Positions 28,256 through 49,872 of a stretch of DNA of 64,000 nt are shown in pieces (positions within the stretch are counted from its first letter, which is position 1; every line of letters starts with the position of its first letter). A model generated the notes under the pieces. The model was not told where the DNA came from. It worked only from the letters and a program-made list of their open reading frames with translations, and made no database searches. The translations under genes were made by a program, and so were the position numbers. The stretch comes from Marinospirillum perlucidum (GTDB lineage: Bacteria > Pseudomonadota > Gammaproteobacteria > Pseudomonadales > Halomonadaceae): positions 1-64,000 of the forward strand of contig NZ_QFWJ01000011.1 in NCBI RefSeq assembly GCF_003336805.1, in the 5' to 3' direction.

Positions 28256-28321
28256 AGGACTGAATTTTATGACCGAGAAAAAACCTGCTGGGCAGGCATT
28301 CGGTCGACACTGCTCCCTGCC

Positions 28322-28978
28322 TTAAATATCCAACTCCATGGCTCGGGCCATGGCTCCGACTCTCATGCCGGTGGCGGGGTGGCGCAGGTCGGGGTTGGCC
28401 CCCTGGCGGATAAGATAGCGGGCGGCTTCTTCCTGGCGCATCATTACGGCGTACATCAGCGGGGTGTTGCCCTGGTCATCCAGTTGGTCGATATCACCAA
28501 TCCGTTCAGCTTCTCGCTTTAAGCCATCCAGGTCGCCGTTCACTGCGGCCAGATAAATCAGGAGGTCGTCGCTCGCACGTCGGGCATGCAAGCCGGTCAG
28601 GGATTCATGCTTGCCCAGACGCAATTCAATGGCAGCCACCAACTGGTCACGACTGGCAGGTTTGGTCAGGTAATCATCGGCTCCCAACTCTCGGCCCAGT
28701 TGCTGGTCTTCACTTGAATCCAGGCCGGTCAGAAAAATAAAGGGGAGTTGTTGCCAGTCGGCACGGGTACGTACTGCCTTGAGAAATTCAAAACCATCCA
28801 TCACCGGCATCTGAATATCACAAATTACCAGATCCGGTAGCCAGGATTCCAGCTTATCCAGAGCCCTGGCCCCGTTACTGGCGGTTTTCAGCTCATAGCC
28901 TTCCTGTTCCAGAATTGTGGCCAGTAGGCGACGAAGGGAGTCATCGTCCTCTACCAGCAGTAGCTTCTTGTCTGTCAC
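28322..28978 (-). CDS. Receiver-ankyrin fusion protein
   Basis: A 218-residue protein with a CheY-like receiver domain (4-120) and a C-terminal ankyrin repeat region (about 140-215). In the receiver the acidic triad is D11/D12, the phosphate-accepting Asp is D54 (VICDIQMPVMDG), the Thr is in FLTG and the Lys in LTKP; all are intact. The ankyrin part reads NGDLDGLKREAERIGDIDQLDDQGNTPLMYAVMMRQEEAARYLIRQGANPD, covering about two repeats. Ankyrin repeats bind proteins, so this may be an output by protein sequestration instead of DNA binding. It is the last gene of the long kinase/binding-protein operon, 44 bp after the diguanylate cyclase. Confidence 0.88.
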   Translation of the reverse strand: MTDKKLLLVEDDDSLRRLLATILEQEGYELKTASNGARALDKLESWLPDLVICDIQMPVMDGFEFLKAVRTRADWQQLPFIFLTGLDSSEDQQLGRELGADDYLTKPASRDQLVAAIELRLGKHESLTGLHARRASDDLLIYLAAVNGDLDGLKREAERIGDIDQLDDQGNTPLMYAVMMRQEEAARYLIRQGANPDLRHPATGMRVGAMARAMELDI

Positions 28979-29022
28979 TCAATGCCTCTTGTCATAATTC
29001 TATAGCCTTGCGAGTTGACCGC

Positions 29023-30318
29023 TTATTCAGCCGCAGAAGGATGGATGGAATAGCGATTCTTACCTTCCTGCTTAGCTGTATACATTGCCTCATCTGCCTG
29101 ATGCATTAATTGCGACATATCAACTTCCTGTGCCTGAGGGTAAAAGGTCACCCCGATACTGGCTGTTACCCGCAGTTTCTCGCCTTCCCAGAGAACCGGT
29201 TCACTGATTACGGCTTCCAGGCGATCCAGCAGGCCGCCTAATTGGTCGGGCACAGCCACGGATTCCAGCACCAGAGAAAACTCATCACCACCCAGGCGGG
29301 CCAGGGTGTCTTCATCTCTCAGGCAGTCTTGCATGCGCCGTGCCACCTCTTGCAGGACAACGTCGCCAGCGGCGTGGCCATGGGTGTCATTAACCGGCTT
29401 GAAACCATCCAGATCCAGGTAGCCTACGGCAATGCGGGTGCCGTGGCGGTCAGCATAGGCCATGGATTGCTTTAGACGGTAATTATACAACACTCGGTTG
29501 GGTAATCCTGTCAGGGCATCAAAATGCGCCAGGTGTTCCAGCTGGGTCTGCTGTTCTTTTTGTTCGGTAATATCGGTGAAAAGGGCGACAAATTGAACGA
29601 TTTCACCGGAAGGATCACGAACACCATTCACGGTCATGTTTTCTACAAAAATTTCGCCATTTTTGCGTCGATTCCAGATTTCGCCTTCCCAGTGACCGTC
29701 GCGGAAGAGATCCTCCCAGAATTGCCGATAAAATTCGCCTGTCTGGTGACCAGAGCTGAGAATGCTCGGGTTTTTACCCAGCACCTCTTCGCGGCTGTAG
29801 CCGGTAATGCGGGTAAAGGAAGCATTCACTTCCAGAATGATTCCGTCAGCCGAGGTAATCATGATGCCTTCTCGGGCATAGTTGAAGACCGTCAAGGCAA
29901 GGCGTTCACTGGCATCCCTTTCGTGCCTCAGCAGTGCGTAGCGGATGGCTTTGCGCAGGCTGGCACCCTCTTCACCCTTGGACAGGTAATCCTCGGCACC
30001 GGCTTCTATCGCCACTTCGGTTGCCTGGTGATCATCCAATCCAGTTAGAACGATCACGGGAACATCCGGTGCCAGCTGGCGACAGCGCTTGACGGTATCA
30101 GGGCCAGTTGAGTCAGGCAGATTCAGATCCAGCAGGATCACATCGGGATGAAAACTCTGATCCCGCAACAAGGATGCGGCCTCTTCGAGACTGGCCACCA
30201 TTTCAACGGCAAAAGCCTCGCGGTCTTTTTCCTGCAGCTGCAGGCGAACCAACTGGGCATCACCCGGCTCATCCTCGATGACCAGTACCCGGGGCTGTTT
30301 AATCTTGTTATCCGGCAC
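29023..30318 (-). CDS. REC-PAS-GGDEF response regulator (diguanylate cyclase)
   Basis: A 431-residue protein with a receiver (about 9-128, phospho-Asp D64), PAS plus PAC (about 140-260) and GGDEF (about 268-425) domains. The active site reads RLGGDEFSLVL and a product-inhibition site RxxD (RDED) lies five residues before it, so it is predicted to be active and feedback-controlled. It makes c-di-GMP when phosphorylated, by analogy with WspR/PleD-type regulators. The start is GTG at 30318 with GGGGAG upstream. It closely resembles the protein at 53094-54410 and follows a receiver gene by the same 26-nt gap. Confidence 0.92.
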   Translation of the reverse strand: MPDNKIKQPRVLVIEDEPGDAQLVRLQLQEKDREAFAVEMVASLEEAASLLRDQSFHPDVILLDLNLPDSTGPDTVKRCRQLAPDVPVIVLTGLDDHQATEVAIEAGAEDYLSKGEEGASLRKAIRYALLRHERDASERLALTVFNYAREGIMITSADGIILEVNASFTRITGYSREEVLGKNPSILSSGHQTGEFYRQFWEDLFRDGHWEGEIWNRRKNGEIFVENMTVNGVRDPSGEIVQFVALFTDITEQKEQQTQLEHLAHFDALTGLPNRVLYNYRLKQSMAYADRHGTRIAVGYLDLDGFKPVNDTHGHAAGDVVLQEVARRMQDCLRDEDTLARLGGDEFSLVLESVAVPDQLGGLLDRLEAVISEPVLWEGEKLRVTASIGVTFYPQAQEVDMSQLMHQADEAMYTAKQEGKNRYSIHPSAAE

Positions 30319-30344
30319 CTTCAGCTCCCCTTTTCAAATAGGTT

Positions 30345-30773
30345 TCAGACAGGTCGTCTGACCAGCTCAAACCAGTAGTCTTCAAGCTTTCTGATCTGGT
30401 GAATAAAATCATCAATACTCACTGGTTTGACGACAAAACCTGCTGCCCCCTGGTCATAGGAAGCATAGATATCACTTTCTGCATCCGAGGTGGTCAAGAC
30501 CACGACGGGGATGGCGCGCAAATGATCCAGCTTTTTCACTTCACGCAGGAATTCACGGCCATCCATACGGGGCATATTCAGGTCAAGCAACACCAGATCG
30601 GGGGTGTCTTTGCCCGCATAGGGGCCTTCTCCCTGTAGGTAAGCCAAGGCTTCCTCACCGTTTTCAACGTGCTCCAGATTGACCCGGACATGCCCTTCTT
30701 CAAAGGCCATGCGGGTCAGATGGGCATCTGCCGGGTCATCTTCGACCAGCAAAATACAACAGGGCTTGCTCAT
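30345..30773 (-). CDS. Single-domain response regulator, Rcp1-like
   Basis: A 142-residue stand-alone receiver. The acidic pair is E11-D12-D13, the phospho-Asp is D64 (LLDLNMPRMDG), the Thr is in VLTT and the Lys in VVKP. The C-terminal tail (DFIHQIRKLEDYWFELVRRP) is shared with the receivers at 33557-33997 and 54437-54859 and is typical of Rcp1-type regulators that partner phytochrome-like kinases. It starts immediately after the stop of the kinase at 30774-32627, which should be its phosphodonor. It probably relays phosphate or binds a target protein. Confidence 0.92.
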   Translation of the reverse strand: MSKPCCILLVEDDPADAHLTRMAFEEGHVRVNLEHVENGEEALAYLQGEGPYAGKDTPDLVLLDLNMPRMDGREFLREVKKLDHLRAIPVVVLTTSDAESDIYASYDQGAAGFVVKPVSIDDFIHQIRKLEDYWFELVRRPV

Positions 30774-32627
30774 TCAGGACTCCTGATCGGGAAAACGCAG
30801 GACAAAGGTGGTACCTCCATCCAGGCCATCTTCAATGAAAACATCGCCACCGGCCTGGCGCAGCAGGCGGCGTACCAGTGCCAGCCCCATGCCGGTTCCG
30901 GGATGGTCGGGCGTATTGGGCACCAGGCGGTTGAATAAATCAAAAACCTGCAGACGGTATTTAGGCGCTATACCGCTGCCGTTGTCCTTGACCAGCAGCA
31001 AGAGGTTATCTTTCTCTTTGCTGCTGTCAATCTCGATTCTCAGGGGTTTGTGCCGGTCCCGGTAGGCGACGGCATTGCCCAGCAGGGCATAAAAAATTTC
31101 CTGCAGGCGTTTTTCGGGAAAATACACTCGGGGTAGCTTCAGCAAGCGCACTTCGGCCTGGGCCTCTTGCAACTTGTCTTTGAGTTCAGGGGCTTCCAGC
31201 AGTTCTTCCAGGAGGTCTTGCAGATCCACCCACCGGGGTTTCAGCTGCACTCGATCCAGCTCCAGGTAACGCTGTACATCCTGCACCAGACGACTGAGGC
31301 GGCCTGCCTGTTCATGAATGAAGTTGACAGAGATACGGGCCTCACCCTCCAGGTCTGCATGCTGGTTAAGACGCTCGGCAAAGACCTGCAGACGCCGTGT
31401 TGGCTCCTGAAAATGGTGCGCCATGACTTCACTCAATCGCTGCAATTCCTGGTTACTGGCGGTCAGTTTTTCCTGGCGCTCATGCAGTTGCCCGGCCATG
31501 CGATTGATGGCACCGGCCAGCTGACCCAGCTCGTCTGCTGTGTCCAGCTCAACCGGCTCCAAGAGTTCACCCTGGCGAATACGCCCTATGCCTTCCAGCA
31601 GGCGTCCCAGGGGCAGGGTCATCTGCTGGCGTACCAACCAGATGCTCAAGGGAACAATCAACAGAGCAGTAATCAGCGAGGCAACCAGTATCCCGCTGCG
31701 GGTACTCTGGCTGGCTTTCTGATAGATCGCCATGGGGTAAAGCAGAGCCAGATAGACGGGCTCACCGGTATGCAAATCCAATTTCTGGAACCCCCAGAAA
31801 CCGCCGGCTTTTTGCAGTATCTTCTGGTCATCCAGATTCAGGTTTTGCAGGTAGGGGTAAAGGGAGGCATCCAGCGTTTGCTTGGCCGTCAGGGAAGCCA
31901 GCAACTGGCCCTCGGCATCAAGCAGGACCGCCTGGATACCCGCAGGTGCCATAGCCGTAAAGAAATCCTCTTCCAGCTCGCGCACGACCAGCAGTGAGCC
32001 CAGCTCACCCAGGGGGTATTTGATTTCCAGAATCAACTGTTGTTGGTGGAAATCATAACTGGCTCCTGCAGGTAGCTGGCTATGCAGGCTGGCCAGGTCT
32101 TCTACCTCTTGCTTGATGGCATTCAGGCGTGAGTTCAGTTCGGTATCGCCACCGGTCACCAGGCGCATCAAGGGCTGGCCTTCACGGTAACTGAGATATC
32201 CCTGATAGAAGCGCTCATTATCTTCCAGAGCAAAACTAACCAGCTGCCCACGGGAACCAAACAGGTAGATGCCACTACTCTGGCCGGTCTGGATGGCGGT
32301 CAAAAGTCGCAGGGCCAGACTGCGTTTTTCTTCATCAAAGAGAATGGCCTGGTAATCTTCAGGATCTTCAAAATCGCGTATCAATTCCATGCTGGCCAAC
32401 AGCCATTCATCCTGACGCAGCCAGAGGGCCTGTTCATCCAGACGCTGCTGCAGCGATTGGTGAAAACTGGCAAAGTCATCAAAGCCTTCGCCAATTAATT
32501 CCCGTGCCGTATTCTCGTGATAATTGAGCAGGCTGCGATCGATCAGGTAACCGGCCAGCAACAGCGACAGCAGAGTCACCAGCAGTGGAAAGAATAGCAG
32601 CTTGGCCTTGAGCGAATTCAGCTTCAT
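30774..32627 (-). CDS. Membrane histidine kinase with AHHFQEP H-box (module A)
   Basis: A 617-residue kinase. TM1 is at about 10-29, a large periplasmic Cache-like sensor region at about 30-305, TM2 at about 311-333, HAMP at about 334-387, a dimerisation helix pair from about 395, and an ATPase domain at about 490-615. The H-box reads VMAHHFQEPTRR. Aligned to the usual SHDLRQP, the phospho-His would be H404, and the acidic residue after it is replaced by His. The N-box LLGNAVAY, G1 DNGSGI and G2 GTGMGLAL are intact. It overlaps the upstream binding-protein stop by one base and abuts the receiver gene downstream, implying binding protein, kinase, receiver as a signalling chain. Confidence 0.88.
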   Translation of the reverse strand: MKLNSLKAKLLFFPLLVTLLSLLLAGYLIDRSLLNYHENTARELIGEGFDDFASFHQSLQQRLDEQALWLRQDEWLLASMELIRDFEDPEDYQAILFDEEKRSLALRLLTAIQTGQSSGIYLFGSRGQLVSFALEDNERFYQGYLSYREGQPLMRLVTGGDTELNSRLNAIKQEVEDLASLHSQLPAGASYDFHQQQLILEIKYPLGELGSLLVVRELEEDFFTAMAPAGIQAVLLDAEGQLLASLTAKQTLDASLYPYLQNLNLDDQKILQKAGGFWGFQKLDLHTGEPVYLALLYPMAIYQKASQSTRSGILVASLITALLIVPLSIWLVRQQMTLPLGRLLEGIGRIRQGELLEPVELDTADELGQLAGAINRMAGQLHERQEKLTASNQELQRLSEVMAHHFQEPTRRLQVFAERLNQHADLEGEARISVNFIHEQAGRLSRLVQDVQRYLELDRVQLKPRWVDLQDLLEELLEAPELKDKLQEAQAEVRLLKLPRVYFPEKRLQEIFYALLGNAVAYRDRHKPLRIEIDSSKEKDNLLLLVKDNGSGIAPKYRLQVFDLFNRLVPNTPDHPGTGMGLALVRRLLRQAGGDVFIEDGLDGGTTFVLRFPDQES

Positions 32628-33541
32628 CAGAAAATGGGTTCCAGCGTTTCAGCCAGCTCGGGGGTAACCGCCTGGGTCTCCAGTTCGACACGAGCGGGCA
32701 CCTTGCCCCCTTCCAGTATTTCCAGAGCCAGCAGAGCGCCCTCATGACCGCCCGTCGGATAAGTAAAACTGAGATCCTGCTCACCGGCCAGCAAAGCCTC
32801 TCGGGCTTCAGCAATATAATCAATGCCCACGATCAGCAGATCAGCCGGATCCAATCCCGCCTGGGTCAGGGCCATGCGCGCACCCGTGGCCATGCTGTCA
32901 CTGTGAGCATAGATGGCATCAAAGCTTTCTCCCTGGCTAAGCAGGTGGCGTAGCACCTGGATGGCATCGGCACGCAAATAATTGGCCGTTCTTGTCACCA
33001 CCTGAATGCCGGGATACTCCGCCATCACCTGCAGGAACCCCTGACTTCTGGCCTGGGTTGTACTGGCACCGGCTACTCCTTCAAGCATCAGCACCCGCCC
33101 CTGCCCTGCCAGTTGTTCGGCCAGATATTCACCCGCCTGGCGGGCAATGGCTGTATTATTGGCAGTGACAAGACTGGTATAGCCTTCCCCCTCGATCGTG
33201 CGGCTGAGAAGAATCACAGGGATGCCCTGCTCATGGACCTGACGAATCACTTGGCCAAGGATCACCTGATCCCTGGGACTGGTAATCAAGAGGTCGATCC
33301 CCCTGTCCACCAGTTGACGGATCTGACGGGCCTGCAGGGAAACCTCGCCCCGGGCGTCAGTGACCACAAATTCCACATCCGGGTGCGACTCCAGGACAGC
33401 ACGCACTTCTTCCACCTGCTTTAGACGCCAGTCATTGCCCAGCGTATCCTGGGCAAAACCCACCAGCCACTGGGCTGACAAGGCTGAAAAAGGCAGCCCC
33501 AGGAGACTAACCAGCAGAAAAGAGCGCAGTTTCATGACCAT
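32627..33541 (-). CDS. Periplasmic type I (ribose/LuxP-like) binding protein
   Basis: A periplasmic sugar-binding-type protein of about 304 residues. The signal peptide ends ALSA before QWLVGFAQ. The fold is like RbsB, TorT and LuxP: VGFAQDTLGNDWR, IDLLITSPRD, IPVILLSRTI, and a hinge region with YAHSDSMATGARMALTQAG. There is no lipobox. No ABC permease or ATPase is nearby; instead its stop overlaps the start of a Cache-type kinase. It therefore probably presents a ligand to that kinase, as LuxP does to LuxQ or TorT to TorS. The ATG at 33541 (GGAG 5 nt upstream) or 33535 may be the start. Confidence 0.85.
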   Translation of the reverse strand: MVMKLRSFLLVSLLGLPFSALSAQWLVGFAQDTLGNDWRLKQVEEVRAVLESHPDVEFVVTDARGEVSLQARQIRQLVDRGIDLLITSPRDQVILGQVIRQVHEQGIPVILLSRTIEGEGYTSLVTANNTAIARQAGEYLAEQLAGQGRVLMLEGVAGASTTQARSQGFLQVMAEYPGIQVVTRTANYLRADAIQVLRHLLSQGESFDAIYAHSDSMATGARMALTQAGLDPADLLIVGIDYIAEAREALLAGEQDLSFTYPTGGHEGALLALEILEGGKVPARVELETQAVTPELAETLEPIF

Positions 33542-33556
33542 CAATTCTCCGTTTGT

Positions 33557-33997
33557 TCACTTTTCCGGGCGCTTGACCAGTTTAAACCAGTAGTGTTCAA
33601 GTTGTTGAACCTGTTCAATAAAATCATTGATATCCACTGGCTTGACGATAAAACCGGCAGCGCCCAAATGGTAGGAAGACTGGATATCGGTTTCTGCTTC
33701 TGAAGTCGTTAAAACCACCACGGGGATGGATTTAAGGGCTTCATCAGCCTTGATCTCACGCAAAAATTCCTGGCCATTCATGCGTGGCATATTCAGATCC
33801 AGCAGGATTAGATCGGGGCGTTCAGCCTGGGTGAAGGGCGGCTGCCGACGCAGGTACTCGAGTGCTTCCACACCATCACGCACCTCGTGAAGATCGATCA
33901 TGACCCGACCTTCTTCAAATGAAAGGCGAACCAGATGAGCATCTGCAGGTTCGTCTTCTACCAGCAGGACTTTAAATAGCGCTTGTTGACTCGGCAT
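33557..33997 (-). CDS. Single-domain response regulator, Rcp1-like
   Basis: A 146-residue receiver with phospho-Asp D67 (LLDLNMPRMNG), acidic pair E14/D15, Thr in VLTT and Lys in IVKP. The tail DFIEQVQQLEHYWFKLVKRP matches the other Rcp1-like receivers here. It overlaps the 3' end of the kinase at 33972-35387 by 26 bp, with AGGAGG just upstream of the ATG, so it is the obvious partner of that kinase. There is no output domain. Confidence 0.92.
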   Translation of the reverse strand: MPSQQALFKVLLVEDEPADAHLVRLSFEEGRVMIDLHEVRDGVEALEYLRRQPPFTQAERPDLILLDLNMPRMNGQEFLREIKADEALKSIPVVVLTTSEAETDIQSSYHLGAAGFIVKPVDINDFIEQVQQLEHYWFKLVKRPEK

Positions 33998-35387
33998 CCT
34001 TCTCTCCCTCCTTAGCAGGCAGATCTAAAACCACTGCGGCCCCTTGTGTCGGAGAATCCACAAAAGCCACCTGGCCGTGATATTGGATCACCAGTTTCTT
34101 GACCAGTGCCAACCCCATGCCGGTGCCCGGATAGGCCGAAGAATTGGGAACCAGACGGGTAAAAATATCAAAAACTTTCTGGCGGTATTCAGGATCAATG
34201 CCGGGACCATTATCCACCAATCGAAGCCGGGTGGTCTGCTCATCCCCATCAATATATAAATCGATTTCCAGCACCGGCTCCAGCGAATACTTTAGGCAAT
34301 TGTTGATCAATTGCACAAAGATTTCTTGCAAGCGTCTTGCAGAAAAATAAACGCCATAATCTGCATCCTGATGTATACGTATACGGGCACTGCCGAGTTC
34401 TTCTGCCAAGCTGGAACAGGCCTGGTCAAAGACTTGGCGTGGATCCAGCTGCTCAGCGGGCAGGTGCAACTGATCCAGAGCCAGATAAGCTTGCACATCA
34501 CGCACCAGATGACTCAAGCGCAATGCCTGCTCCTGAATAAAACCCAACGCGGGATCTTCTTCGCTGCCCGCCTGGGTCACTGGCGTTTTTGTTTGCAAAC
34601 GCTGGGCATAGATGGCCATGCGTCGAACCGGCTCCTGAAAATGATGAGCCATGACTTCATTCAAGCGCGCCTTTTCCTCCTGGGAAGCCTGCAATGATGC
34701 CGTCAACTCGTTGAACGCACGAACCACCTGACCGATTTCATCTCTTTCGTGACCGGGCAAATACTTCAGCGGTTTGAGCTCTTCGCGCTCTCTACGCTGA
34801 TCCAGGGCTTGAGCCAACTGGCTGAGCGGACGGGTCAATAACTGCTTGGCAATGGCCAGAAGCACAAAGGCCAAGACTACATTGCGAACCAACCCGAAGA
34901 GTAACTCCCAGATCACCCTTCGAATAAAGTCGCTACCGGCCAGACCCCCGTTCAGGGTGATTCTCAGCTCGCCCACTGCCTGCCGCTCATCGGTATAATT
35001 GTTGTGCCACACCAGCGGGTGGGTAAACACCAACTCTTCACCCAGCAAATGTGCGTACCAGGGGCTTTGAATTGAAGCCCGCCGGTCGCGGTTGGCCAGC
35101 ACCCGCCCACGCTCGGTGATCAGGTGGCCGGAACTGACGGCCTGAACGGCAAAAAGCCCTTCCAGCACCTCTTCAGCCAGGGTGGCATCCAGGGTATAGG
35201 CAGCCTGGGTTGCTGCATTTGCTGTTGTTTTAAGCAACTCCTGTGTGGATTCGCGAATATTTTCACGTGTCTGCTGAAAATCCACAAAGATCAATAGCAG
35301 ACTCATGCCCAAGCCCAGGACAACAGCCACCAGCAGAGTCAGACGGGTATGGCGCCAGGCCAGGCTTCGTGCCCAGTCACGCATCAT
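33972..35387 (-). CDS. Membrane histidine kinase with AHHFQEP H-box (module C)
   Basis: A 471-residue kinase from the chosen ATG at 35387, where ATG overlaps the upstream TGA stop; an ATG at 35384 is also possible. It has TM1 (about 15-35), a periplasmic region of about 115 residues, TM2 (about 160-182), HAMP (about 183-235), the H-box region VMAHHFQEPVRR with the phospho-His candidate H248, and an ATPase domain with LINNCLKY, DNGPGI and GTGMGLAL. The acidic residue following the phospho-His is His. It follows a family 3 binding-protein gene and precedes a receiver gene. Confidence 0.88.
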   Translation of the reverse strand: MMRDWARSLAWRHTRLTLLVAVVLGLGMSLLLIFVDFQQTRENIRESTQELLKTTANAATQAAYTLDATLAEEVLEGLFAVQAVSSGHLITERGRVLANRDRRASIQSPWYAHLLGEELVFTHPLVWHNNYTDERQAVGELRITLNGGLAGSDFIRRVIWELLFGLVRNVVLAFVLLAIAKQLLTRPLSQLAQALDQRREREELKPLKYLPGHERDEIGQVVRAFNELTASLQASQEEKARLNEVMAHHFQEPVRRMAIYAQRLQTKTPVTQAGSEEDPALGFIQEQALRLSHLVRDVQAYLALDQLHLPAEQLDPRQVFDQACSSLAEELGSARIRIHQDADYGVYFSARRLQEIFVQLINNCLKYSLEPVLEIDLYIDGDEQTTRLRLVDNGPGIDPEYRQKVFDIFTRLVPNSSAYPGTGMGLALVKKLVIQYHGQVAFVDSPTQGAAVVLDLPAKEGEKDAESTSAI

Positions 35388-36136
35388 GAGGAAGGCTCCC
35401 CGACCCGCCAATCCGGTCCTGCCCAGGCATCCAGCACGGCTTGAATACGGCCTTGTGCACGCAGATCTTCAATGCCCTGCCGCATGACAGGCAGCAGCTC
35501 CAAGGCGCCACTTGAGCGCGAAAACTGCAGGGTGACCGGGGTTACCTGTAAAATCAGGCGGTCGCCCAGTAGCGCATCCAGTTGTCTTTTTTCCTGCAGA
35601 TAGGCCAGGGACAGGCTGTTGCCGGCAATGGCATCCAGACGTCCCGCTTCCAGCATATTCAGCTGGGTTTCATAATTACGCACGGAAATCTTGTGCAAAC
35701 GCTTATCCTGATCAAAACGCGGAGACAAGCGAATGCCCTGAAGCACACCGATACGTAGCCCCAGAAGATCTTCATAATCATTTAATCGAATCCCCTGGCG
35801 GGCCTGAACCACGGAACCAAAATGAAACAGCAGACCGGCATGGAGCACTTCATCATCACGATCAGGAGAGCGGATCAAATAACTGATATCAGCATCGCCC
35901 AAGGCCAGACTCTCCATGACCCGGGCATAGGGGGCCAGGCGTTTTTGCTGCTCAATTCCGGTTTCATCCTCGAGCAGGCGAGCAATATCGATCCAGATTC
36001 CCTGGAGTTCCCCTTGCTCGGGCTGATAAAACCCCCAGGGCTCGGTCTCCATGATCAGAGCGCGCAAACGTTCGGAGCTGTCAGCCCAGACAAGCCCACC
36101 AGCTAAAAGGAGACAGGCACCGAGCAAAGCTTTCAT
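35384..36136 (-). CDS. Periplasmic family 3 solute-binding protein
   Basis: A 250-residue secreted protein with a short signal peptide ending VWA before DSSERL. The fold is that of amino-acid-type (family 3) binding proteins: RALIMETEPWGFYQPE, GIWIDIARLLEDETG, LRIGVLQGIRLSP and RLDAIAGNSLSLAYLQ. No transporter subunits are adjacent. Both neighbours are histidine kinase genes with ATGA overlaps, so it is more likely a sensor input than a transport protein. The canonical carboxylate-binding Arg is not clear to me. Confidence 0.83.
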   Translation of the reverse strand: MKALLGACLLLAGGLVWADSSERLRALIMETEPWGFYQPEQGELQGIWIDIARLLEDETGIEQQKRLAPYARVMESLALGDADISYLIRSPDRDDEVLHAGLLFHFGSVVQARQGIRLNDYEDLLGLRIGVLQGIRLSPRFDQDKRLHKISVRNYETQLNMLEAGRLDAIAGNSLSLAYLQEKRQLDALLGDRLILQVTPVTLQFSRSSGALELLPVMRQGIEDLRAQGRIQAVLDAWAGPDWRVGEPSS

Positions 36137-37701
36137 TCATCCACCTTGTTCTTTGCAGGTGCCAAGGGCAGGGTGAAGGTAAAACGACTCCCCTCACCTT
36201 TACCCTGGGATTCGACCCAGATATGGCCACCATGGCCTTCAACAATCTTGCGGCATACCGCCAGGCCGACGCCACTGCCTTCGTACTCCTGCTGGGTATG
36301 CAGACGCTGAAAAACCTGGAAAAGCCGGTCCTGCATGTTCGGCTGAATACCGATGCCCTGATCCTGCACACTGAATTCATGGCGATTTTCCAGGGTACGT
36401 ACCTGAATATGAATACTGGGCGGCGTTTCACCTGCATGATATTTCAGTGCATTGCCCACAAGATTCTGGAACAGGCGGGTCAGTTCGTCATGACTGGCAT
36501 AGACCTGGGGCCAACTTTCTCCCTCGATGATAATTTCAGCGCCCCGAGCTTCAATATCAGGTCGCAGATAAATCAAAGCTTCATTCAGAGCTTCACGACT
36601 AGCCAACCAGCGCCTGGGCTGCCCTTTGCGCCCGACCCGTGAATATTCAAGCAGGGAAACCAGCATTTGATCCAGACGCCGGGCACCATCGGAAGCAAAA
36701 TCCATCATCACCCTGGCTTCTTCATCCAATTGGCTATCCAGGCGTTTTTCCAGAAGTTTCAAGTAGCTAGTGATCATTCTCAGCGGTTGACGCAAATCAT
36801 GACTGGCGACATAGGCAAACTGCTCCAGCTCGGCATTAGAGGCCCGCAACTCAGCTGTTCTTTCGTTGACTCTTTCTTCCAGACTCGCTTGAGCCTGCTG
36901 GAGGGCTTCTTCCCGGCTTTTGATGCGGGTTTGCAGCAGATTAAAAGCCTGGGCCAGTTGCGCCAGTTCATCCTGCCCCTGATCATCCAGGGGTTGCGGA
37001 CGGTTGGTCAAAGCCAACTCACGAGCCCCATCTCTTAGCAGCAGCAAACGTTTTAGAAGCCCCAGAGTCACCCAGGCTAAAAGCCCTCCCAGTAACACTA
37101 AGCTCACCAGGGCAATCCACAAAAAGAGGTGAAACTGCCAATCGCGGCGCTCAAGCAGCAGGCTGTAGATGTCCTCGGACTGCTGTTGACGCTGCCAGGA
37201 GAAAGTCTGGAAAGCATTGATTAAGTTCTGAAAACTGCTTGTTGACTGGTAAACGGAAATATCCAGCGCCTGATCAGGACGTTTCGCAGCGGCCGCTGTA
37301 AGCAGCTCGTCAAGATCCTGGCGGTAAGCCTGCCAGCCTTCTTCAAGCAGGCGTATCTGCAGGGCAGGAATAGCCGGCAACGCCTCTAGCACCTGGTGTA
37401 GCTGCTGATCAAAATCACGGCTATCCGCTTCCAGGGCAAAAGCCTGGTTGACCAGAGCAAACTCATCCCGGACCCGCACTAGAGTGACTTCTTTCTCCCG
37501 TAGCTTTAGCAGTTCTGCCTGGAGGTCATTAATTTCCACCAGAGGAATCAACTGACCATCCAGCAGGCGCTGAGTATCCCTGATGGCTTCTCGCAGGCTA
37601 CTTTCGGCAAAAAAAAGCAGCATCAGCATGATGGTTACGCCCAGTAAAAAACTACTGATCAGACGAAAGCCCAATCCCTGGTGCCAACGTGGAGCTTTCA
37701 C
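36133..37701 (-). CDS. Membrane histidine kinase with SHDLRQP H-box
   Basis: A 522-residue kinase. TM1 is at about 14-32, a helical periplasmic domain (about 33-188, four-helix-bundle-like), TM2 at about 192-214, HAMP (about 215-265), a coiled coil, HisKA with phospho-His H301 in ASHDLRQPLRM, and an ATPase domain with LVGNALKYH, DQGIGI and GSGVGLAV. The kinase core is closely related to those at 51196-53094 and 56163-58292. The start is GTG at 37701, overlapping the upstream stop (GTGA). It sits between two binding-protein genes. No dedicated receiver follows it directly, so it may share the Rcp1-like receivers of the operon. Confidence 0.9.
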   Translation of the reverse strand: MKAPRWHQGLGFRLISSFLLGVTIMLMLLFFAESSLREAIRDTQRLLDGQLIPLVEINDLQAELLKLREKEVTLVRVRDEFALVNQAFALEADSRDFDQQLHQVLEALPAIPALQIRLLEEGWQAYRQDLDELLTAAAAKRPDQALDISVYQSTSSFQNLINAFQTFSWQRQQQSEDIYSLLLERRDWQFHLFLWIALVSLVLLGGLLAWVTLGLLKRLLLLRDGARELALTNRPQPLDDQGQDELAQLAQAFNLLQTRIKSREEALQQAQASLEERVNERTAELRASNAELEQFAYVASHDLRQPLRMITSYLKLLEKRLDSQLDEEARVMMDFASDGARRLDQMLVSLLEYSRVGRKGQPRRWLASREALNEALIYLRPDIEARGAEIIIEGESWPQVYASHDELTRLFQNLVGNALKYHAGETPPSIHIQVRTLENRHEFSVQDQGIGIQPNMQDRLFQVFQRLHTQQEYEGSGVGLAVCRKIVEGHGGHIWVESQGKGEGSRFTFTLPLAPAKNKVDE

Positions 37702-39113
37702 TGGGCCACTCTCCTTGCTTGCTGGTCCTGTGCCCGATCAGGCAGGATCTCTTGTTCACGGCTGATCTGCTGCCAGGCCGCTTCGATTCTCTGAAGAGTC
37801 ACTTCCTCACTGAGATGCTGCTCTATCGCTTCGGCAAGCAGTTGGTTAAAAGCCTCAATGTAAAGCCCACTGCCTTCCTGATCCAATGCCGGATTCACGG
37901 TGTTAGGCAGGCTGGTAGCTATGGCATCCAGAGTAGCCTGGCCGTAGACTGCAGCCAGCTCCGGGGCTTGTAAATGCGATTCGCGAAAAGGATCGGCAAA
38001 ACTTCGGGTCAAAACCAGTCCTTCTTCGGAAACATCGGCAGAAGTAATCCAAAGTGCATATAGCAGCGCCAGCAGGGGGTAACGGCTTTGGGCCGGAATC
38101 ACCAAATTATTGCCAAAAGCCAAAACCGAAGAGCGAACCAGGGATTGGTTATGGTAAACACCGGGCAAAGGGTGCACAGAAAAACGGTCAGAAATGGGCA
38201 GAGGCCGATTACGGAACAACTTGCTGGCAGCGGGAGTGATCATCAGGGCATAAGCCTGTCCCTTATAAAAATAGGGTAAGGCTGCATCATAACCGGAGCC
38301 AGCTAAGCGCACGCTGTCAGGAGTCATGTCCAGTGTTGCCAGATAGCTGGATAGAGCTGCCTGCCCTGCCGGGGTATTGATTCTCGGGCGCCCCTGGTCA
38401 TCAAACAAACGCGTATCCGGCCAGCTAAAAGCCATAAAGCGCGCCAGCCAGAAGGGCCAGGCCAAGTGGGGGTCACGTAATTCCACACTACCCCAAAGCC
38501 CTTGTTCCGGGCGGTGAAAGAAACTGACCTGGTCCTGGTATTCTTGCCAGGTCTGCGGTGCCTTGAGGGGGTAGCCAAAACGTGCCTGAAAGGCGCTTTT
38601 CTCTTCGGGATCATCCAGCAAATCCTGACGCAGGTACAACAAAAGCAGATCAGCATCACCCGGCACGGCTAACCGCTGGTCATGAAAAACCGTTTGCGCT
38701 TCACCCAGGAACCAGTCTTCATCTTCGGGATAAAACCCCAATTCAGCATAGAAGTCGTTAAGACTCAGAATCAGACCCCGGGAAAAGAGATCCGGGTATT
38801 CCTGATTACGGGCAACCAGCAAATCAACCTGGCCATCTCTTTGCAGGGCTTCACCAGCCGTTTGCTGAGGCATCAAACGAATATCCAGCAAGATGCCTGT
38901 AGCCATTTCCCAGCGTTCTTTCAGTGCCTGGTCTGCTCCAAGAAAATAAGCCTGATTACCTTCTTTGACCTGAAGGTGTAAACGTGCTTCCTGCGGCAGT
39001 CGGCCACTGGCTTGCAACTGGCGAACCTGCTCTAGCAGGCGATCGTAAGGCGTTGAGGCCTGAGCGATGGACAGCCCCCAACCCAGTACCAGAGCCAAGA
39101 CTACCCGGATCAT
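37698..39113 (-). CDS. Periplasmic family 1 solute-binding protein
   Basis: A 471-residue secreted protein with a signal peptide ending IAQA before STPYD. The fold matches extracellular family 1 (sugar/oligosaccharide) binding proteins: VKEGNQAYFLGADQALKERWEMATGI, GQVDLLVARNQEYPDLFSRG, a central GYPLKAPQTWQEYQDQV and YKGQAYALMITPAASKLF. A C-terminal helical extension (about 415-471) is unusual. No permease is nearby. ATGA overlaps tie it to kinase genes on both sides, suggesting a sensing role. Confidence 0.82.
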   Translation of the reverse strand: MIRVVLALVLGWGLSIAQASTPYDRLLEQVRQLQASGRLPQEARLHLQVKEGNQAYFLGADQALKERWEMATGILLDIRLMPQQTAGEALQRDGQVDLLVARNQEYPDLFSRGLILSLNDFYAELGFYPEDEDWFLGEAQTVFHDQRLAVPGDADLLLLYLRQDLLDDPEEKSAFQARFGYPLKAPQTWQEYQDQVSFFHRPEQGLWGSVELRDPHLAWPFWLARFMAFSWPDTRLFDDQGRPRINTPAGQAALSSYLATLDMTPDSVRLAGSGYDAALPYFYKGQAYALMITPAASKLFRNRPLPISDRFSVHPLPGVYHNQSLVRSSVLAFGNNLVIPAQSRYPLLALLYALWITSADVSEEGLVLTRSFADPFRESHLQAPELAAVYGQATLDAIATSLPNTVNPALDQEGSGLYIEAFNQLLAEAIEQHLSEEVTLQRIEAAWQQISREQEILPDRAQDQQARRVAQ

Positions 39114-41107
39114 TCTTGGGGCTCCTTATTGGTACTGGCCAAGGGTAAATCGATCACCACAGCCAAACCTCCAAGCCTACTAGACTCAAGGAAAAGCTTC
39201 CCCTCCATCTGTAGCACCAGTTTTCTGGCCAGAGGCAAACCCATGCCCAGTTGACGTCCTTTGATTTCATCCAGGTGAACCATCAGATCCAGGGCCTGCT
39301 CATACTGATCCGGGTGCAGACCCACCCCGTTATCGCTGAAAGTTACTTCCAGACGATCACCCAGACAGCGTGCGGAAATTTCAACCCGCAGCGAACCTTC
39401 ACAGTGACTATGCTGCCAAGCATTGTTAAGAAGCTCTTTGACGAGGCGTTGAAGTTTACGCTGCGGGCCTTCAATCTCAGGCCAGGGGGTGGCGACCAAG
39501 GTGACGTATGAACGAAGATCGACCACCAGTTCATCCGAAGCCAGCAGATTTTCGATCAATTGGGGCAAAGACAATTTCTTGGGAGGCTCCAGGTAGCTTC
39601 CCGCTTGCATGTAGGTTTGAATCGATTGCACCAAAGCACGCAGGTAGCTGGCCTGTTCGCGAATAAAATCGATTGCCTGGCGTGAACGGTAACCGACTTG
39701 CAGACTGGAATCCTGGCGCAGCTGATCGGCAAAAATCATCAGGCGACGTGAGGGTTCCTGAAAATGATGAGCCATGATGTAGTTCAGGCGTTCTTCTTCT
39801 TTTTTGGCTGCTAAGAGTCGAGCTTCTTCCTGGCGCCTTGACGTTATATCTTCATTGATGCCGACCAGTTGCTCTACTTCACCATCCTGCCCTCGAATAA
39901 TCCGGGCATGGTTACGAATCAAACGTAATTTACCGTCAGGCCGCCTGATCCGAAATTCATCTTCAAAGTCTCCACCGCTCTCAAGATAGCGGCTTAATTT
40001 GCTGTAAATCCGCTCTTTTTCACCGGGCAGGAGGGCTGCTTCCCACTCTTGATTGGTTCCACTAAAGTGAGCCGGATCCTGTTGAAAAATACTGAACATG
40101 CCAGCATCCCAGTGTATTTCACCGGTTTTAAGGTTAAGATCCCAGATTCCCATACCCGCTGCCTGAGTGGCCAATTGCAAGCGCTCACCGGCTTCAGCCG
40201 CATCGCGGCGCTTTTCATTCAATTGCATCTGTTGCAGCAACAACTGTCGGGTAAGCCGGAAAGTGAGCCAAGCCACCAGCAACCCGATCAAGATACAAGC
40301 CACTAGCAAGAGTGACCAAAGCGGGGTGGCAGTAACCGGACGCAGAGCCAGCTGCCATTCACCATCCAGGGCTCGAACCGCCATTTTGAGTGTGCTCGGG
40401 CTGGAGAAGAAATCATCCGAACCCAGAAAGGTCGCCCCGTCTGATCCCTGGCCATCTTGTCCACGGATGGCGAGGTCTCCTTGATCCAGCAAGGCTTGGG
40501 CACCAGATTTTTCAAGCAGATATTCCAGGCGAATGGCGGTTCCAACAGTACCCCAGTAGTCACTGCCTCCATCAGCAAGGTTAATAAACACTGGCACCCG
40601 GTGAATGATCGCTGAACCGCCCTGGACTAAATCAATGGGGCCTGCCAGCACCGGACGGCGAGATTGTTTTAAAAGATCCAGTGCCCGGGCCTGTTCAGGT
40701 ATCGCAGCCAGGTTCAAACCGTGGGTGGAGCTGTTTTCAGCGACCGGAAAATTCCAGAGGATAATATTATCCGGTGCCAAAGCCATATTACGGATCATGG
40801 GGTGACGAGCCAGCAGTTGCTCTGCCAGAGCCTGGAAGCGAGAGAAATCCAAATCACTAACCGGTTGGCTGGCAATATAAAAACTGAAACTGGCCGAAGC
40901 ATTACTGGCCTGATTGAGGGTGGATTCCAGCCGACTGCGCACCTCGGCGAGCTTGCGCTCTTCCTGTGACAGAAGATTGCTTTTGAAGAGGCTCAGTAGC
41001 AGGAAGAGTAGTAAAAAGGTGATAAGACCTGAAGCCAAACCACTAAGAAGAGGGAGGCGCCTTTGCAAGGCTTCCATTTTTTCAAGCCAAGAATTCAAGC
41101 TGTTCAC
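39110..41107 (-). CDS. CHASE-PAS histidine kinase with AHHFQEP H-box
   Basis: A 665-residue kinase that opens the 11-gene operon. TM1 is at about 22-42 and a periplasmic CHASE-like domain at about 50-255 (MIRNMALAPDNIILWNFP, GPIDLVQGGSAIIHRVPVF). TM2 is at about 263-285, PAS/PAC at about 305-425, and the H-box region IMAHHFQEPSRR has phospho-His candidate H447. The ATPase domain has LLNNAWQH, DNGVGL and QLGMGLPL. It lacks an adjacent receiver, unlike the other three AHHFQEP kinases. The start is GTG at 41107 with AGGGG close upstream. CHASE domains bind small extracellular ligands; the ligand here is unknown. Confidence 0.87.
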   Translation of the reverse strand: MNSLNSWLEKMEALQRRLPLLSGLASGLITFLLLFLLLSLFKSNLLSQEERKLAEVRSRLESTLNQASNASASFSFYIASQPVSDLDFSRFQALAEQLLARHPMIRNMALAPDNIILWNFPVAENSSTHGLNLAAIPEQARALDLLKQSRRPVLAGPIDLVQGGSAIIHRVPVFINLADGGSDYWGTVGTAIRLEYLLEKSGAQALLDQGDLAIRGQDGQGSDGATFLGSDDFFSSPSTLKMAVRALDGEWQLALRPVTATPLWSLLLVACILIGLLVAWLTFRLTRQLLLQQMQLNEKRRDAAEAGERLQLATQAAGMGIWDLNLKTGEIHWDAGMFSIFQQDPAHFSGTNQEWEAALLPGEKERIYSKLSRYLESGGDFEDEFRIRRPDGKLRLIRNHARIIRGQDGEVEQLVGINEDITSRRQEEARLLAAKKEEERLNYIMAHHFQEPSRRLMIFADQLRQDSSLQVGYRSRQAIDFIREQASYLRALVQSIQTYMQAGSYLEPPKKLSLPQLIENLLASDELVVDLRSYVTLVATPWPEIEGPQRKLQRLVKELLNNAWQHSHCEGSLRVEISARCLGDRLEVTFSDNGVGLHPDQYEQALDLMVHLDEIKGRQLGMGLPLARKLVLQMEGKLFLESSRLGGLAVVIDLPLASTNKEPQE

Positions 41108-41204: not shown

Positions 41205-42854
41205 TCAATCCACGTAAACCTTGAACTGTCGACGCAACTCATCCAGCACTCGGGTAGTGCCTTGTACATGCTGACTGGCAACATGTGCCTGTTCAGCCTG
41301 AGCCGCATTACTATCAGCCAGATTAGCAATGCCTTCGACGGTTTCAGCCACCTCTCTTGCCGCCAGGGTCTGCTCACGCAGCACCTGCTGAATATCTTGG
41401 GTAGCTTCCACCACGCGCAGGGTCTGCTGCTGGATATCAGCAACCGACTGGCCAGCATTTTTGGCTTTTTCCACGCCCGATTCCACCTTCTCGACGCTGG
41501 CCTGCATCTCATCGGCAGCCGCTTCTGTACGCTGCTGAATCTGAGTCACCATGTCGGTAATCTCTACAGTAGACTGAGCGGTGCGCTCGGCAAGATTGCG
41601 GACCTCATCGGCCACCACGGCAAAACCGCGACCGTGTTCACCGGCCCGCGCAGCTTCAATGGCTGCATTCAACGCCAACAGATTTGTCTGTTCGGCAATC
41701 TCGCGAATGGTGGAAACGATCTGACCGATACTGGCAGACACGGCTTCCAGTTCTTTCAGTTGGGCCGCAGATTCTTTGACGGTATCGGCAATAGCAGCAA
41801 TTTCCTGGGTACTAGCATAGACTGCCTCGGCACCGGAGCGAGCTACCTCACCGGCATTTTGAGAAGCCTCATGAGCATTATCCGCATTGTGACCGATCTG
41901 CTCTACCGAAGCGGTCAATTCTTCCAAAGCCGCCGCCATGCTTGCCGATGCAGAGGATTGCTCTTGCGCTCCGCGTGAGGTTTCCTCGCTGGCGCTGAGC
42001 ATTTCTTCTGCTGACTGTTTCAAGCTTTTGGCCGACTGGGTCATCTGGAAAGCGATTTCAAACAGGCGATTGCGCATTACCTGTACGGCATTGAAGACGC
42101 TACCGATTTCATCCTGATGTCCCATAGGTGCCTCGGCCACCAGGTTTCCCGAACCGATTTCGCGAGCGGCGCGAACCAGTTTGTTCAAACGACTGGACTG
42201 TTCCCTTAACACCAACCACTGCCAGACAAAAGCCACGCCCCCAAAAACACCCAGGCTGGCCAGCATGGGCAGAAGAACCGCTTCAGTTTGCGCGTGCTTG
42301 GTGACCATCCATTGCCAGCCAGCAACTCCCGCCAGGGCAAAAAAGAGGAAAAATAAAGGCAATAAAGCCGTCACCGTAAGACTCAGGTTACTGTAGCCGT
42401 GTTTGAAACGTGCAACCAGACCGGGCAGATGGTAGCCACCGGAAAGGCGATCACTGCTGCCTTCACGCATACGCTTGTACAAGGCTTCAGCGGCACTGAC
42501 TTCTTCACGGGTCGGACGCAGACGCACACTCATGTAACCGCCATCAGGACGTGGAGTGGCAGTAGCCTTAACCCAGTAGTGGTCACCATTTTTACGCCGG
42601 TTCTTAACCAGCCCCTGCCAGGCCCTGCCTTGCTTCAGGGTTGCCCACATGTCGCGAAAGGCTTCCTGGGGCATATCCGGGTGACGGATAATATTGTGGG
42701 GTTTGCCAATCAGTTCTTCCCGGGTAAAACCGGCGTATTCGACAAATTCATCGTTAACGTAGGTGATCTGACCCTTGGTGTCAGTATGAGAAATAATCGC
42801 GCAATCCTGGCGCACTGGATATTCATTCTGGGTGACAGGCTGATTATTGCGCAT
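41205..42854 (-). CDS. Aer-like PAS-containing chemoreceptor
   Basis: A 549-residue methyl-accepting chemotaxis protein. The N-terminal PAS (about 15-125) carries the Aer-type motif [12 protein letters not shown], which in Aer binds FAD for redox/energy taxis. A short hydrophobic hairpin (about 160-215) anchors it to the membrane, followed by a HAMP-like region. The signalling domain contains the highly conserved hairpin tip [35 protein letters not shown]. It lacks a C-terminal CheR-tethering pentapeptide. No che genes are in the window. Confidence 0.92.
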
Positions 42855-42996: not shown

Positions 42997-43386
42997 TTAC
43001 ATTTGTTTTGACGCGTCGAACAAGGTATGCAACTGGCTTGCCAGGTTGACCGGATTAAAGGGCTTTTCAATCAAACCCAGAATGCCTGGCTGTTTCCAGG
43101 TTTCCGGATAATCAGCACTGACCTTGGCCGTCAAAAGAACAGCAGGCACCTCTGCCAACTCGGGATCCTGACGGGTCAACTGGAAAAACTCCAGGCCTGT
43201 CATACCCGGCAGCATTACATCGAGCAAAAAAAGATCGGGTTTAAAGGCTGCGGCCTCCTGTTGGGCAATTTCAGCCGATTCCACCAGGCAAACCTCCAAC
43301 CCACCCAGTTTTGCTAATGCCATCTGCACCAGCATACGGATATCGGGATCGTCTTCAACACAAAACACTCTGCGCAGCTCTACCAC
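42997..43386 (-). CDS. Single-domain response regulator
   Basis: A 129-residue receiver with acidic cluster E11-D12-D13, phospho-Asp D56 (LLDVMLPGMTG), Thr in LLTA and Lys in IEKP. It lacks the Rcp1-like tail and is closer to the receivers of hybrid phosphorelays. The start is GTG at 43386 with GGAG 7 nt upstream. It is the third gene of an HPt, kinase, receiver operon, so phosphate flow among the three is likely. Confidence 0.9.
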   Translation of the reverse strand: MVELRRVFCVEDDPDIRMLVQMALAKLGGLEVCLVESAEIAQQEAAAFKPDLFLLDVMLPGMTGLEFFQLTRQDPELAEVPAVLLTAKVSADYPETWKQPGILGLIEKPFNPVNLASQLHTLFDASKQM

Positions 43387-43398
43387 GGGCTAACTCCA

Positions 43399-45192
43399 TC
43401 AACTTTCTTCTGTTGTCGACAATCCATACCTGGGCAGCTCCAAATAAAAACAACTGCCCTGATGTGGCAGGGAACTAAAACCCATACGCCCTTGCATAGC
43501 GGCTACGAGCTCGCGGGTAATGGACAGGCCCAAACCGGTTCCCCCATGGCGGCGGCGATCGGAAGCATCGGCCTGGGCAAAGCGCTCAAAAACCCGGGAT
43601 TGAAACCCCAGAGGGATACCTTCACCTTCATCTTTGACACTGATACGTACCCATTCATCTTTATCAGTAGAAACCTGGATACTCACCCGAGTACCTTCAG
43701 GCGAGAATTTAACCGCATTGGAAAGCAGGTTATTCATGACCTGCTGCAAGCGTGCGTAATCGACCTTGACCTGGATATCCTCAGCGGCCATTTCTAAATC
43801 CAGCTCGATTTGTTTTGCCTTGGCCTGAGGAGAAAAATCACACAAGACTTCATCAAGAATCGGCTTAAGCGATTGCTGACGCATCTCCAGTCGCAAGCTT
43901 CCGCGCGCCAGACTGGCCAGATCCAAGAGGTCGTTTACCAGGGCCAGCAAACGCCCGGTATTGCGCTCGGCAATACTCAACATTTCTTCGCGTTCAGGCT
44001 CACCCAGTTGAGCTGAAGTCAGTAAGGAAAGACTACCCTGAATCGAAGTCAAAGGGGTGCGTAACTCGTGGCTCACCAGGGAAATAAATTCTTCCTTCAT
44101 GCGATCCTGACGGTCGCGCATCTGCTCCAGCGCATTAAAGGCCTGCAATAACTGACCGATTTCATCTTGACGCTGGATGGCGAAGGGCTGCAACCCCCCG
44201 CCCTGGTTTACTGCAGTATTGATCTGGGCGATAGCCTGGCGCACCGGTCGCAGTAAATAATGCACCAGGTAAATGGTCAAGCAGCCCATGATCACCAACA
44301 TCAAGAGCGTCAAAAGCAGATACTGGCTAATCAGGTTACGAACCGGCATCAACACTGCTCGCTCCGAAGCCAGTTTAACCACCAGCCAGTGCATGGGCTC
44401 CATATATTCGTTGACAAAGATCCAGGCCTCACCCTGTTCATCCTCGAGAGTACCCCGCGAAGTCGAGTCCAGAAGGCGATCCAACAAAGGCTCGGCACCC
44501 GGCTCCGGCAGAGGCTGTAACACCTGATCGGGATTACTCGAAGCAATATAAAGCCGGTTAATCGGATCCAGCACCAGCAGACGGCTGTCCTGGTCCTGCA
44601 TTTCTTCACCCAGCCGCTTGAAAAGTGCTTCTTCACGCAGATCAGTACTGGCGACCAGCAAGCCGACCAGTTCTTCCCGTTCATCAAAAATCGGGGCAGC
44701 CATCACATACATGGGGCGACGGGTTTTGGCACCAATTAAAAGGGAGCTGATGACAGAGGTTTTTTCAGTCAAGGAACGACTAATAAAGGAACGAAACGAG
44801 TAGTCGGTCCCTACCCGTCCGGGAAAGACCGGCTGATCTATCAGAACGACACCTTCAGGATTCATCACCGAAAGATCGCTGAAGCCACTGCCAACTTGTG
44901 CTGCTTTAAGGTGTTCTCGGATACTGGCAAGGGGCAACAAACCTTCTACATCGGCCAAACGGTCAGCATGGGCTTCGACCCAGCGCAGACGTGTTTCCAG
45001 GTTCTGCTCGATCCGTTGCACGACCAGCCTTATCTGCTCCTGCTCACGCTTTAAAAACAGGCTACGGTATTCATTCTCGAAATAGGCTTTGACCAGAATA
45101 GCTGACAAGACAGTAATGATGATAAAACAGCCAGCGAGCAACAAGCTGAGACGTTTTTGTAGTGACCAGTTGCGTGGATGAAAGGCAGCCAT
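43399..45192 (-). CDS. Cache-HAMP histidine kinase
   Basis: A 597-residue kinase from ATG 45192 (AAGGG upstream; the TTG at 45198 is less likely). TM1 is at about 15-36, a double-Cache periplasmic sensor at about 40-285 (LINRLYIASSNPDQV, WIFVNEYMEPMHWLVVKLA), TM2 at about 290-315 and HAMP at about 316-370. HisKA has a canonical SHELRTPLTSIQGSL, and the ATPase domain has NNLLSNAVKFS, DEGEGI and GGTGLGLSI. The preceding gene encodes an HPt protein and the following one a receiver, so this operon is a complete phosphorelay without an output domain. Confidence 0.93.
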   Translation of the reverse strand: MAAFHPRNWSLQKRLSLLLAGCFIIITVLSAILVKAYFENEYRSLFLKREQEQIRLVVQRIEQNLETRLRWVEAHADRLADVEGLLPLASIREHLKAAQVGSGFSDLSVMNPEGVVLIDQPVFPGRVGTDYSFRSFISRSLTEKTSVISSLLIGAKTRRPMYVMAAPIFDEREELVGLLVASTDLREEALFKRLGEEMQDQDSRLLVLDPINRLYIASSNPDQVLQPLPEPGAEPLLDRLLDSTSRGTLEDEQGEAWIFVNEYMEPMHWLVVKLASERAVLMPVRNLISQYLLLTLLMLVIMGCLTIYLVHYLLRPVRQAIAQINTAVNQGGGLQPFAIQRQDEIGQLLQAFNALEQMRDRQDRMKEEFISLVSHELRTPLTSIQGSLSLLTSAQLGEPEREEMLSIAERNTGRLLALVNDLLDLASLARGSLRLEMRQQSLKPILDEVLCDFSPQAKAKQIELDLEMAAEDIQVKVDYARLQQVMNNLLSNAVKFSPEGTRVSIQVSTDKDEWVRISVKDEGEGIPLGFQSRVFERFAQADASDRRRHGGTGLGLSITRELVAAMQGRMGFSSLPHQGSCFYLELPRYGLSTTEES

Positions 45193-45201
45193 GAACAACC
45201 C

Positions 45202-47497: not shown

Positions 47498-47499
47498 GC

Positions 47500-49860: not shown

Positions 49861-49872
49861 TTTTACACCTGT

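Follow-up and report, generated by a model that had tools for sequence, protein, structure and literature searches.

Positions 28,322 to 41,107 of a 64,000-nucleotide stretch of Marinospirillum perlucidum DNA (contig NZ_QFWJ01000011.1, positions 1 to 64,000; hereafter the window) hold an operon of eleven signalling genes, in which four histidine kinases (HK1 to HK4) are interspersed with three periplasmic binding proteins (SBP1, SBP3 and the ribose-type RBP). With a probability of roughly 70%, this operon is read as a multi-input, binding-protein-gated kinase array that would bring the signals of periplasmic ligands together on two common receivers of the Rcp1-like type (RECa and RECb) and on a diguanylate cyclase. 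The wiring SBP1-HK2, SBP3-HK3 and RBP-HK4 is well supported by sequence comparison, as each of the three sensors was found elsewhere beside the same binding-protein family, on a GGDEF, GGDEF-EAL or hybrid-kinase output. The genes are given below in order of transcription with their supporting matches, followed by the two features that flank them.

39110-41107, minus strand: HK1, CHASE sensor, PAS and HHFQEP-type kinase (Pfam CHASE 43 bits, PAS, HATPase)
37698-39113, minus strand: SBP1, family 1-like periplasmic binding protein (SBP_bac_1 18 bits, signal-peptide-like N-terminus)
36133-37701, minus strand: HK2, 4HB_MCP_1 four-helix-bundle sensor, HAMP and HisKA, H-box HDLRQP (Pfam)
35384-36136, minus strand: SBP3, family 3 periplasmic binding protein (Pfam SBP_bac_3 35 bits)
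33972-35411, minus strand: HK3, short PAS-like periplasmic sensor, HAMP and HHFQEP kinase (Pfam)
33557-33997, minus strand: RECa, Rcp1-like single-domain receiver with C-terminal extension (Pfam 86 bits)
32627-33544, minus strand: RBP, ribose-type binding protein (Pfam Peripla_BP_4 162 bits)
30774-32627, minus strand: HK4, tandem-PDC periplasmic sensor, HAMP and HHFQEP kinase (Pfam HAMP/HATPase, AlphaFold model)
30345-30773, minus strand: RECb, Rcp1-like single-domain receiver (Pfam 81 bits)
29023-30318, minus strand: REC-PAS-GGDEF diguanylate cyclase (Pfam GGDEF 158 bits, motif RDEDTLARLGGDEF)
28322-28978, minus strand: REC-ankyrin protein (Pfam REC 102 bits, Ank)
28283-28297, minus strand: terminator-like hairpin with a T run, 3' of the REC-ankyrin gene (consensus scan)
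41205-42854, minus strand: PAS-HAMP methyl-accepting chemoreceptor, 97 bp upstream of HK1 (Pfam)

Pairing of binding proteins and sensors

Pairing was assessed by asking whether a binding protein and a sensor domain co-travel when the output domain differs. Sensor-only queries against 83 kinase and GGDEF N-termini returned only the expected partners, with all other matches below 6 bits. The HK4 sensor matched RBP-linked receptors at 35-169 bits, and the HK2 and HK3 sensors matched locus L105 at 36 bits (with the M. celere query) and L064 at 31.5 bits, respectively. Because this set of N-termini is enriched for loci reached via the binding proteins, the genome-wide searches are the less biased evidence.

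The HK4 sensor alone matched 10 of 151 genomes of the family, and nine of these matches adjoined an RBP. The gene directly downstream of RBP relatives with at least 36% identity encodes a membrane protein with GGDEF or GGDEF-EAL domains in Thiodiazotropha, Pseudothauera, Azoarcus, Thauera, Hydrogenovibrio and three further family members, and RBP relatives precede kinases in genomes G131 and G128 and in a gammaproteobacterial metagenome-assembled genome; in this tally, the relative L035 sits at a contig end. An HK4-type sensor was present on RBP-adjacent receptors wherever these were aligned, which was done outside the Betaproteobacteria. G131 carries a stand-alone RBP-HK4-REC-REC/GGDEF unit, and RBP-HK4-REC-cyclase was found at a contig edge in G076. 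In the RBP tree, which includes some long branches, receptor-neighbour RBPs formed one clade as against those with transporter or undetermined neighbours (support 97/92).

The AlphaFold model of the HK4 sensor (pLDDT 83.5, pTM 0.75) is a tandem PDC, with structure matches to vpHK1S-Z8 (Z 12.5), DctB (Z 11.8) and the periplasmic domain of LuxQ, both free (Z 11.3) and in the LuxP complex (Z 10.7). The modelled fold supports compatibility with a LuxPQ-like mode and is not proof of it. Among solved structures, RBP came closest to 2x7x (E 1.3e-38), a sensor-protein periplasmic domain that is presumably that of BT1754, the Bacteroides thetaiotaomicron fructose sensor. A YPTxG segment is common to RBP and 2x7x in the alignment. 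Compared with what are presumably the ribose contacts, two arginine positions and one aspartate are kept in RBP, and the equivalents of Asn190 and Gln235 are not. On weak sequence grounds, the ligand of RBP is probably a sugar, perhaps in its furanose form.

The HK3 sensor was found in 50 of the 151 family genomes. Its relatives outside the genus, an arbitrary sample of nine loci, were all on GGDEF proteins, and eight of the nine adjoined SBP_bac_3, with two of these eight neighbours just below the Pfam cut-off for the copy tested. The SBP_bac_3 beside HK3-type sensors occurs as one or two genes or as a double SBP_bac_3 protein. At L129, L130, L131, L132, L134, L135, L136 and L137, family 3 binding proteins, either in tandem or fused, adjoin a GGDEF protein of ~425 aa. 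In G024, an SBP3 relative (47-49%) stands before a GGDEF-EAL protein carrying an HK3-type sensor. At E 1e-22, a search across 369 sampled genomes of the class returned no SBP3 relative besides the window's own. A fold search with the HK3 sensor gave a weak match to a LapD-like periplasmic domain (E 4e-4), which was used for no claim.

SBP1 matched SBP_bac_1 below the Pfam cut-off (18 bits), and its relative in L108 scored 59 bits. A 40% relative in G361 is followed by a hybrid kinase with an HK2-type 4HB sensor, which aligned with that of HK2 at 51-79 bits including HAMP and at 18-36 bits for the sensor only. More distant SBP1 relatives precede a kinase (G340), a hybrid kinase (G028) and a GGDEF-EAL protein (G368, where the relative is fused to an RBP-type domain). 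No HK2 sensor homology was found beside these three, the match in G028 covering the HAMP part only. Among weak relatives, the gene surroundings were read only for the one in G142 (26%), and these are transporter-like. The protein L108:7580-10024 fuses family 1 and ribose-type binding domains and precedes a GGDEF-EAL protein.

The congener G002 retains the core of HK2 (58% over 262 aa), has a fused Phosphonate-bd domain in place of its sensor and lacks SBP1. The same fused periplasmic domain is found on HDLRQP kinases of G124 and G128. HDLRQP kinases with Phosphonate-bd in the place of the helical sensor of HK2 were located at L038:11629-13845, L044:3096-6098 and L083:5992-8550. HK1 is disfavoured as the partner of SBP1, since the sensor recurring beside the SBP1 relative in G361 is the 4HB type of HK2 and not the CHASE type of HK1. 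That SBP1 acts at HK1 is still conceivable, given that G002 lacks both of them.

An earlier reading of the window, made from the sequence alone (the sequence-only reading), had proposed that the binding proteins provide input to the kinases around them, and the co-occurrence of each sensor with the same binding-protein family on other outputs, together with the lack of a ribose-type permease described below, supports this. As HK1 has a CHASE domain of its own and no binding protein could be assigned to it, three binding-protein inputs for four kinases is the more exact description.

Operon layout and conservation in the genus

All eleven open reading frames lie on the minus strand in the order and at the positions first read, and all are backed by Pfam matches. 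The junctions from HK1 to the REC-ankyrin gene measure -4, -4, -4, -28, -26, +12, -1, 0, +26 and +44 bp, so that the overlap or spacing of at most 12 bp attributed to nearly all of them applies to eight of ten, the last two being slightly wider. Promoters and terminators were called by consensus scans only. The sequence-only reading had named separate promoters for each gene as a finding that would speak against it, and the scan gave no good match at the internal junctions. Signal peptides and membrane helices were assigned by simple hydropathy and reading rather than by a dedicated predictor; on this basis, all three binding proteins have signal-peptide-like N-termini, and HK1-HK4 each have a periplasmic domain between two membrane helices. 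The absence of permease and ATPase genes from 28,322-41,107 was confirmed. The description of the binding proteins as structurally unrelated was too strong, as families 1, 3 and ribose-type are different families of what are all Venus-flytrap proteins.

The neighbourhood search recovered the operon order in M. celere and part of it in G002. In M. celere, the order is the same with one extra gene between RECa and RBP (L039:9016-11532), which encodes a REC-PAS-GGDEF-EAL protein with a zinc-binding CZB domain. In G002, this position holds a 161-aa protein consisting of REC alone, possibly a remnant of the REC-PAS-GGDEF-EAL gene. G002 retains the chemoreceptor, the HK2 core, SBP3, HK3, a receiver, RBP, HK4, a receiver and the cyclase, and lacks HK1, SBP1 and REC-ankyrin. 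The REC-ankyrin gene has a 66% identical counterpart in M. celere, where the CHASE sensor of HK1 is also kept (216 bits, sensor-only query). The chemoreceptor lies directly upstream of the operon in both relatives (74-83% identity), for which reason the gene at 41205-42854 probably belongs to the operon unit. Neither RBP nor SBP3 was found in four other congeners searched, at the thresholds used. The conservation in M. celere argues that the gene order is not due to chance, and by these sequence comparisons the stacked arrangement is so far restricted to part of one genus. Gene content, its conservation and the binding protein-sensor pairs are what the comparison between genomes shows.

Signal flow and alternative readings

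The kinases fall into two types by their H-box. HK1, HK3 and HK4 share the H-box HHFQEP, with a histidine in place of the acidic residue after the phosphoacceptor histidine, and have this phosphoacceptor helix type in common (38-45% identity); the H-box of HK2 is HDLRQP, with the canonical acidic residue present. Pfam HisKA gave no match for HK1 or HK4. A dozen kinases of the HHFQEP subfamily were seen over the loci examined, including one in the window at 54856-56214, and mostly a Rcp1-like receiver gene follows. The G2 box of HK1 reads RQLGMGL, as against GTGLGL in M. celere, and as the first glycine is missing, the kinase activity of HK1 may be reduced. RECa and RECb are 61% identical, with a nearly identical alpha-1 region, and each is ~29-30% identical to the REC domain of the cyclase. 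Because the two receivers are near-alike and the HHFQEP helix is common to HK1, HK3 and HK4, cross-phosphorylation among these kinases and receivers is likely, as judged from their sequences. The GGDEF active site and the RxxD inhibitory site of the cyclase are intact (RDEDTLARLGGDEF).

From these data we infer what the binding proteins bind and where they dock, by which routes phosphate is passed on, that the genes are co-transcribed and what the operon does physiologically. SBP1, SBP3 and RBP, which have no transporter genes in the operon, would each take a small solute and dock on one kinase sensor of its own. SBP1 would act on HK2 through its helical sensor, SBP3 on HK3 through its short PAS-like sensor, and RBP on HK4 through its tandem PDC, in the manner of LuxP and LuxQ. 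HK1 would receive its input via its own CHASE domain. The HHFQEP-type kinases HK1, HK3 and HK4 would phosphorylate RECa and RECb as a shared hub, and phosphate flow via HK2 and/or this hub would set the activity of the REC-PAS-GGDEF cyclase and the REC-ankyrin protein. Several external solutes might thereby be integrated into the level of cyclic di-GMP (c-di-GMP) and, through it, into motility or biofilm behaviour. Shared receivers and a c-di-GMP output would agree with the domain content and with the presence of kinases and receivers of duplicated types.

The module HK(HDLRQP)-HK(HHFQEP)-REC plus REC-GGDEF was found without free binding proteins in G124, G141, G024 and at 53.1-58.3 kb of the window, and the operon is therefore read as an expansion of this module through added binding protein-sensor cassettes. 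In its fuller form this reading, for which we see even odds, makes the operon a multi-ligand device in which three binding protein-gated kinases with differing sensor folds and a CHASE kinase converge on interchangeable receivers and one cyclase. It would have been built by moving pre-existing binding protein-sensor cassettes, which occur elsewhere on GGDEF or hybrid-kinase receptors, onto kinase cores, a process that the sensor exchange in G002 would still show.

Several observations weigh against the gated array. Two receptors break the pairing, namely a GGDEF protein in G004 (L133) with an HK3-type sensor and no binding protein, and a GGDEF protein in G056 (L128) with an HK4-type sensor and no RBP. 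Outside the genus, the evidence for the SBP1-HK2 pairing comes from one locus (G361), to which the exchange in G002 is added. The tandem-PDC fold is common, so that it gives compatibility only and by itself implies no binding-protein partner. Gene adjacency by itself may mislead: in P. aeruginosa, binding proteins encoded near the sensors AgtS and AruS did not bind them (PMC11113362).

This last precedent also bears on a transport function, in which the binding proteins would serve ATP-binding cassette transporters encoded elsewhere and their place among kinases would be incidental or only regulatory. Most such proteins do serve transport, and the BPD_transp_1 permeases present in the 3.07 Mb genome (99% complete) could in principle take SBP1 or SBP3, so that the permease argument covers RBP and not these two. 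The genome has six BPD_transp_2 permease genes, all paired and with best matches to LivH/LivM or UrtB/UrtC; no ribose-type permease for RBP was found in it, and a transport role of RBP was rejected on this ground. As binding protein and sensor type moreover co-travel across genera with changed output domains, and none of the receptor-linked relatives examined had a permease next to it, we regard the transport reading as very improbable.

A set of insulated parallel pathways (SBP3-HK3-RECa, RBP-HK4-RECb and HK2 with REC-PAS-GGDEF), which the operon would only co-express without integration, is unlikely but deserves more weight. A receiver gene of its own comes after each of HK3 and HK4, every binding protein-sensor pair exists alone elsewhere, and the unit of G131 contains RBP and HK4 with receivers and GGDEF. 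Such insulation sits poorly with the likely cross-phosphorylation through the near-alike receivers and the common HHFQEP helix, and HK1 would be left without a receiver of its own. Integration by a binding-protein-gated array is preferred.

Most periplasmic kinase sensors have no known ligand, and three sensor types come here with soluble binding proteins for a ligand search. Where the same cassette is naturally swapped between kinase and GGDEF outputs, ready-made chimeras are at hand for studying binding-protein signalling across the membrane. In compact form, the stack would show several signals being integrated into c-di-GMP, and the point that cassettes move among outputs of the kinase, hybrid-kinase and c-di-GMP kinds may find wider use than the stack itself.

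Surrounding genes and known systems

A second, paralogous signalling cluster occupies 46421-58292 of the window and forms with the operon a signalling island of roughly 30 kb. It consists of an HDLRQP kinase, the HHFQEP kinase at 54856-56214, a Rcp1-like receiver (54437-54859), a REC-PAS-GGDEF protein (53094-54428), another HDLRQP kinase, REC-PAS-GGDEF, a hybrid kinase and REC-HD-GYP. Adjoining the operon at 42997-46402 are a receiver, a Cache-type HisKA kinase, an Hpt protein and an OmpR-type regulator, which is divergent. G002 has relatives of these next to its operon, with the kinase in two copies. At 10259-13233, reading of the sequence suggests a CHASE2-adenylate cyclase-like membrane protein beside a FecR-like protein.

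The RBP-HK4 pair resembles LuxP-LuxQ in combining a ribose-type binding protein with a kinase that has a tandem-PDC periplasmic domain (PMC8534201). LuxQ, however, is a hybrid kinase feeding LuxU, whereas HK4 lacks a receiver domain, has a separate single-domain receiver encoded after it and is stacked with two other binding protein-kinase pairs; the nearest solved relative of RBP is the sensor domain 2x7x. SBP1-HK2 is similar to TorT-TorS, in which a binding protein acts on an all-helical kinase sensor (PMC8534201), but TorT is ribose-type where SBP1 is family 1-like, and TorS is a hybrid kinase with a transcriptional-regulator output. With NspS-MbaA and ScrB-ScrC, which are binding protein-gated GGDEF-EAL receptors, the operon would share the control of c-di-GMP by a periplasmic binding protein, and relatives of its sensors occur on GGDEF, GGDEF-EAL and hybrid-kinase receptors. 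In those systems the binding protein acts directly on the cyclase/phosphodiesterase, whereas the sensors of the operon are on kinases and c-di-GMP would lie downstream of receivers. In Cph1-Rcp1, a small receiver with a C-terminal extension is encoded directly after the kinase gene, as in the operon; Cph1 is a phytochrome, unlike the operon kinases with the H-box HHFQEP, which are membrane sensors.

A model for RECa and RECb as receivers common to several kinases is given by MrrA of Caulobacter, a single-domain receiver phosphorylated by at least six kinases and described as an integration knot (PMC5964349). In contrast to the operon, MrrA serves the general stress response and involves no binding proteins. 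Ten of eleven characterised couples of binding protein and kinase are encoded side by side, and in PAO1, which has 58 kinases, two-component genes are reported to lie near genes for binding proteins only twice (PMC11113362), which suggests that three pairs in one operon are unusual. The sequence-only reading knew of single cases such as LuxPQ and TorTS and of no such stack. A literature search of incomplete coverage found no paper on several binding protein-kinase pairs in one operon, and nothing on Marinospirillum kinases or on multikinase networks with binding proteins. Each pair is of a known kind (LuxPQ, TorTS, NspS-MbaA), and it is the stacked arrangement that seems new.

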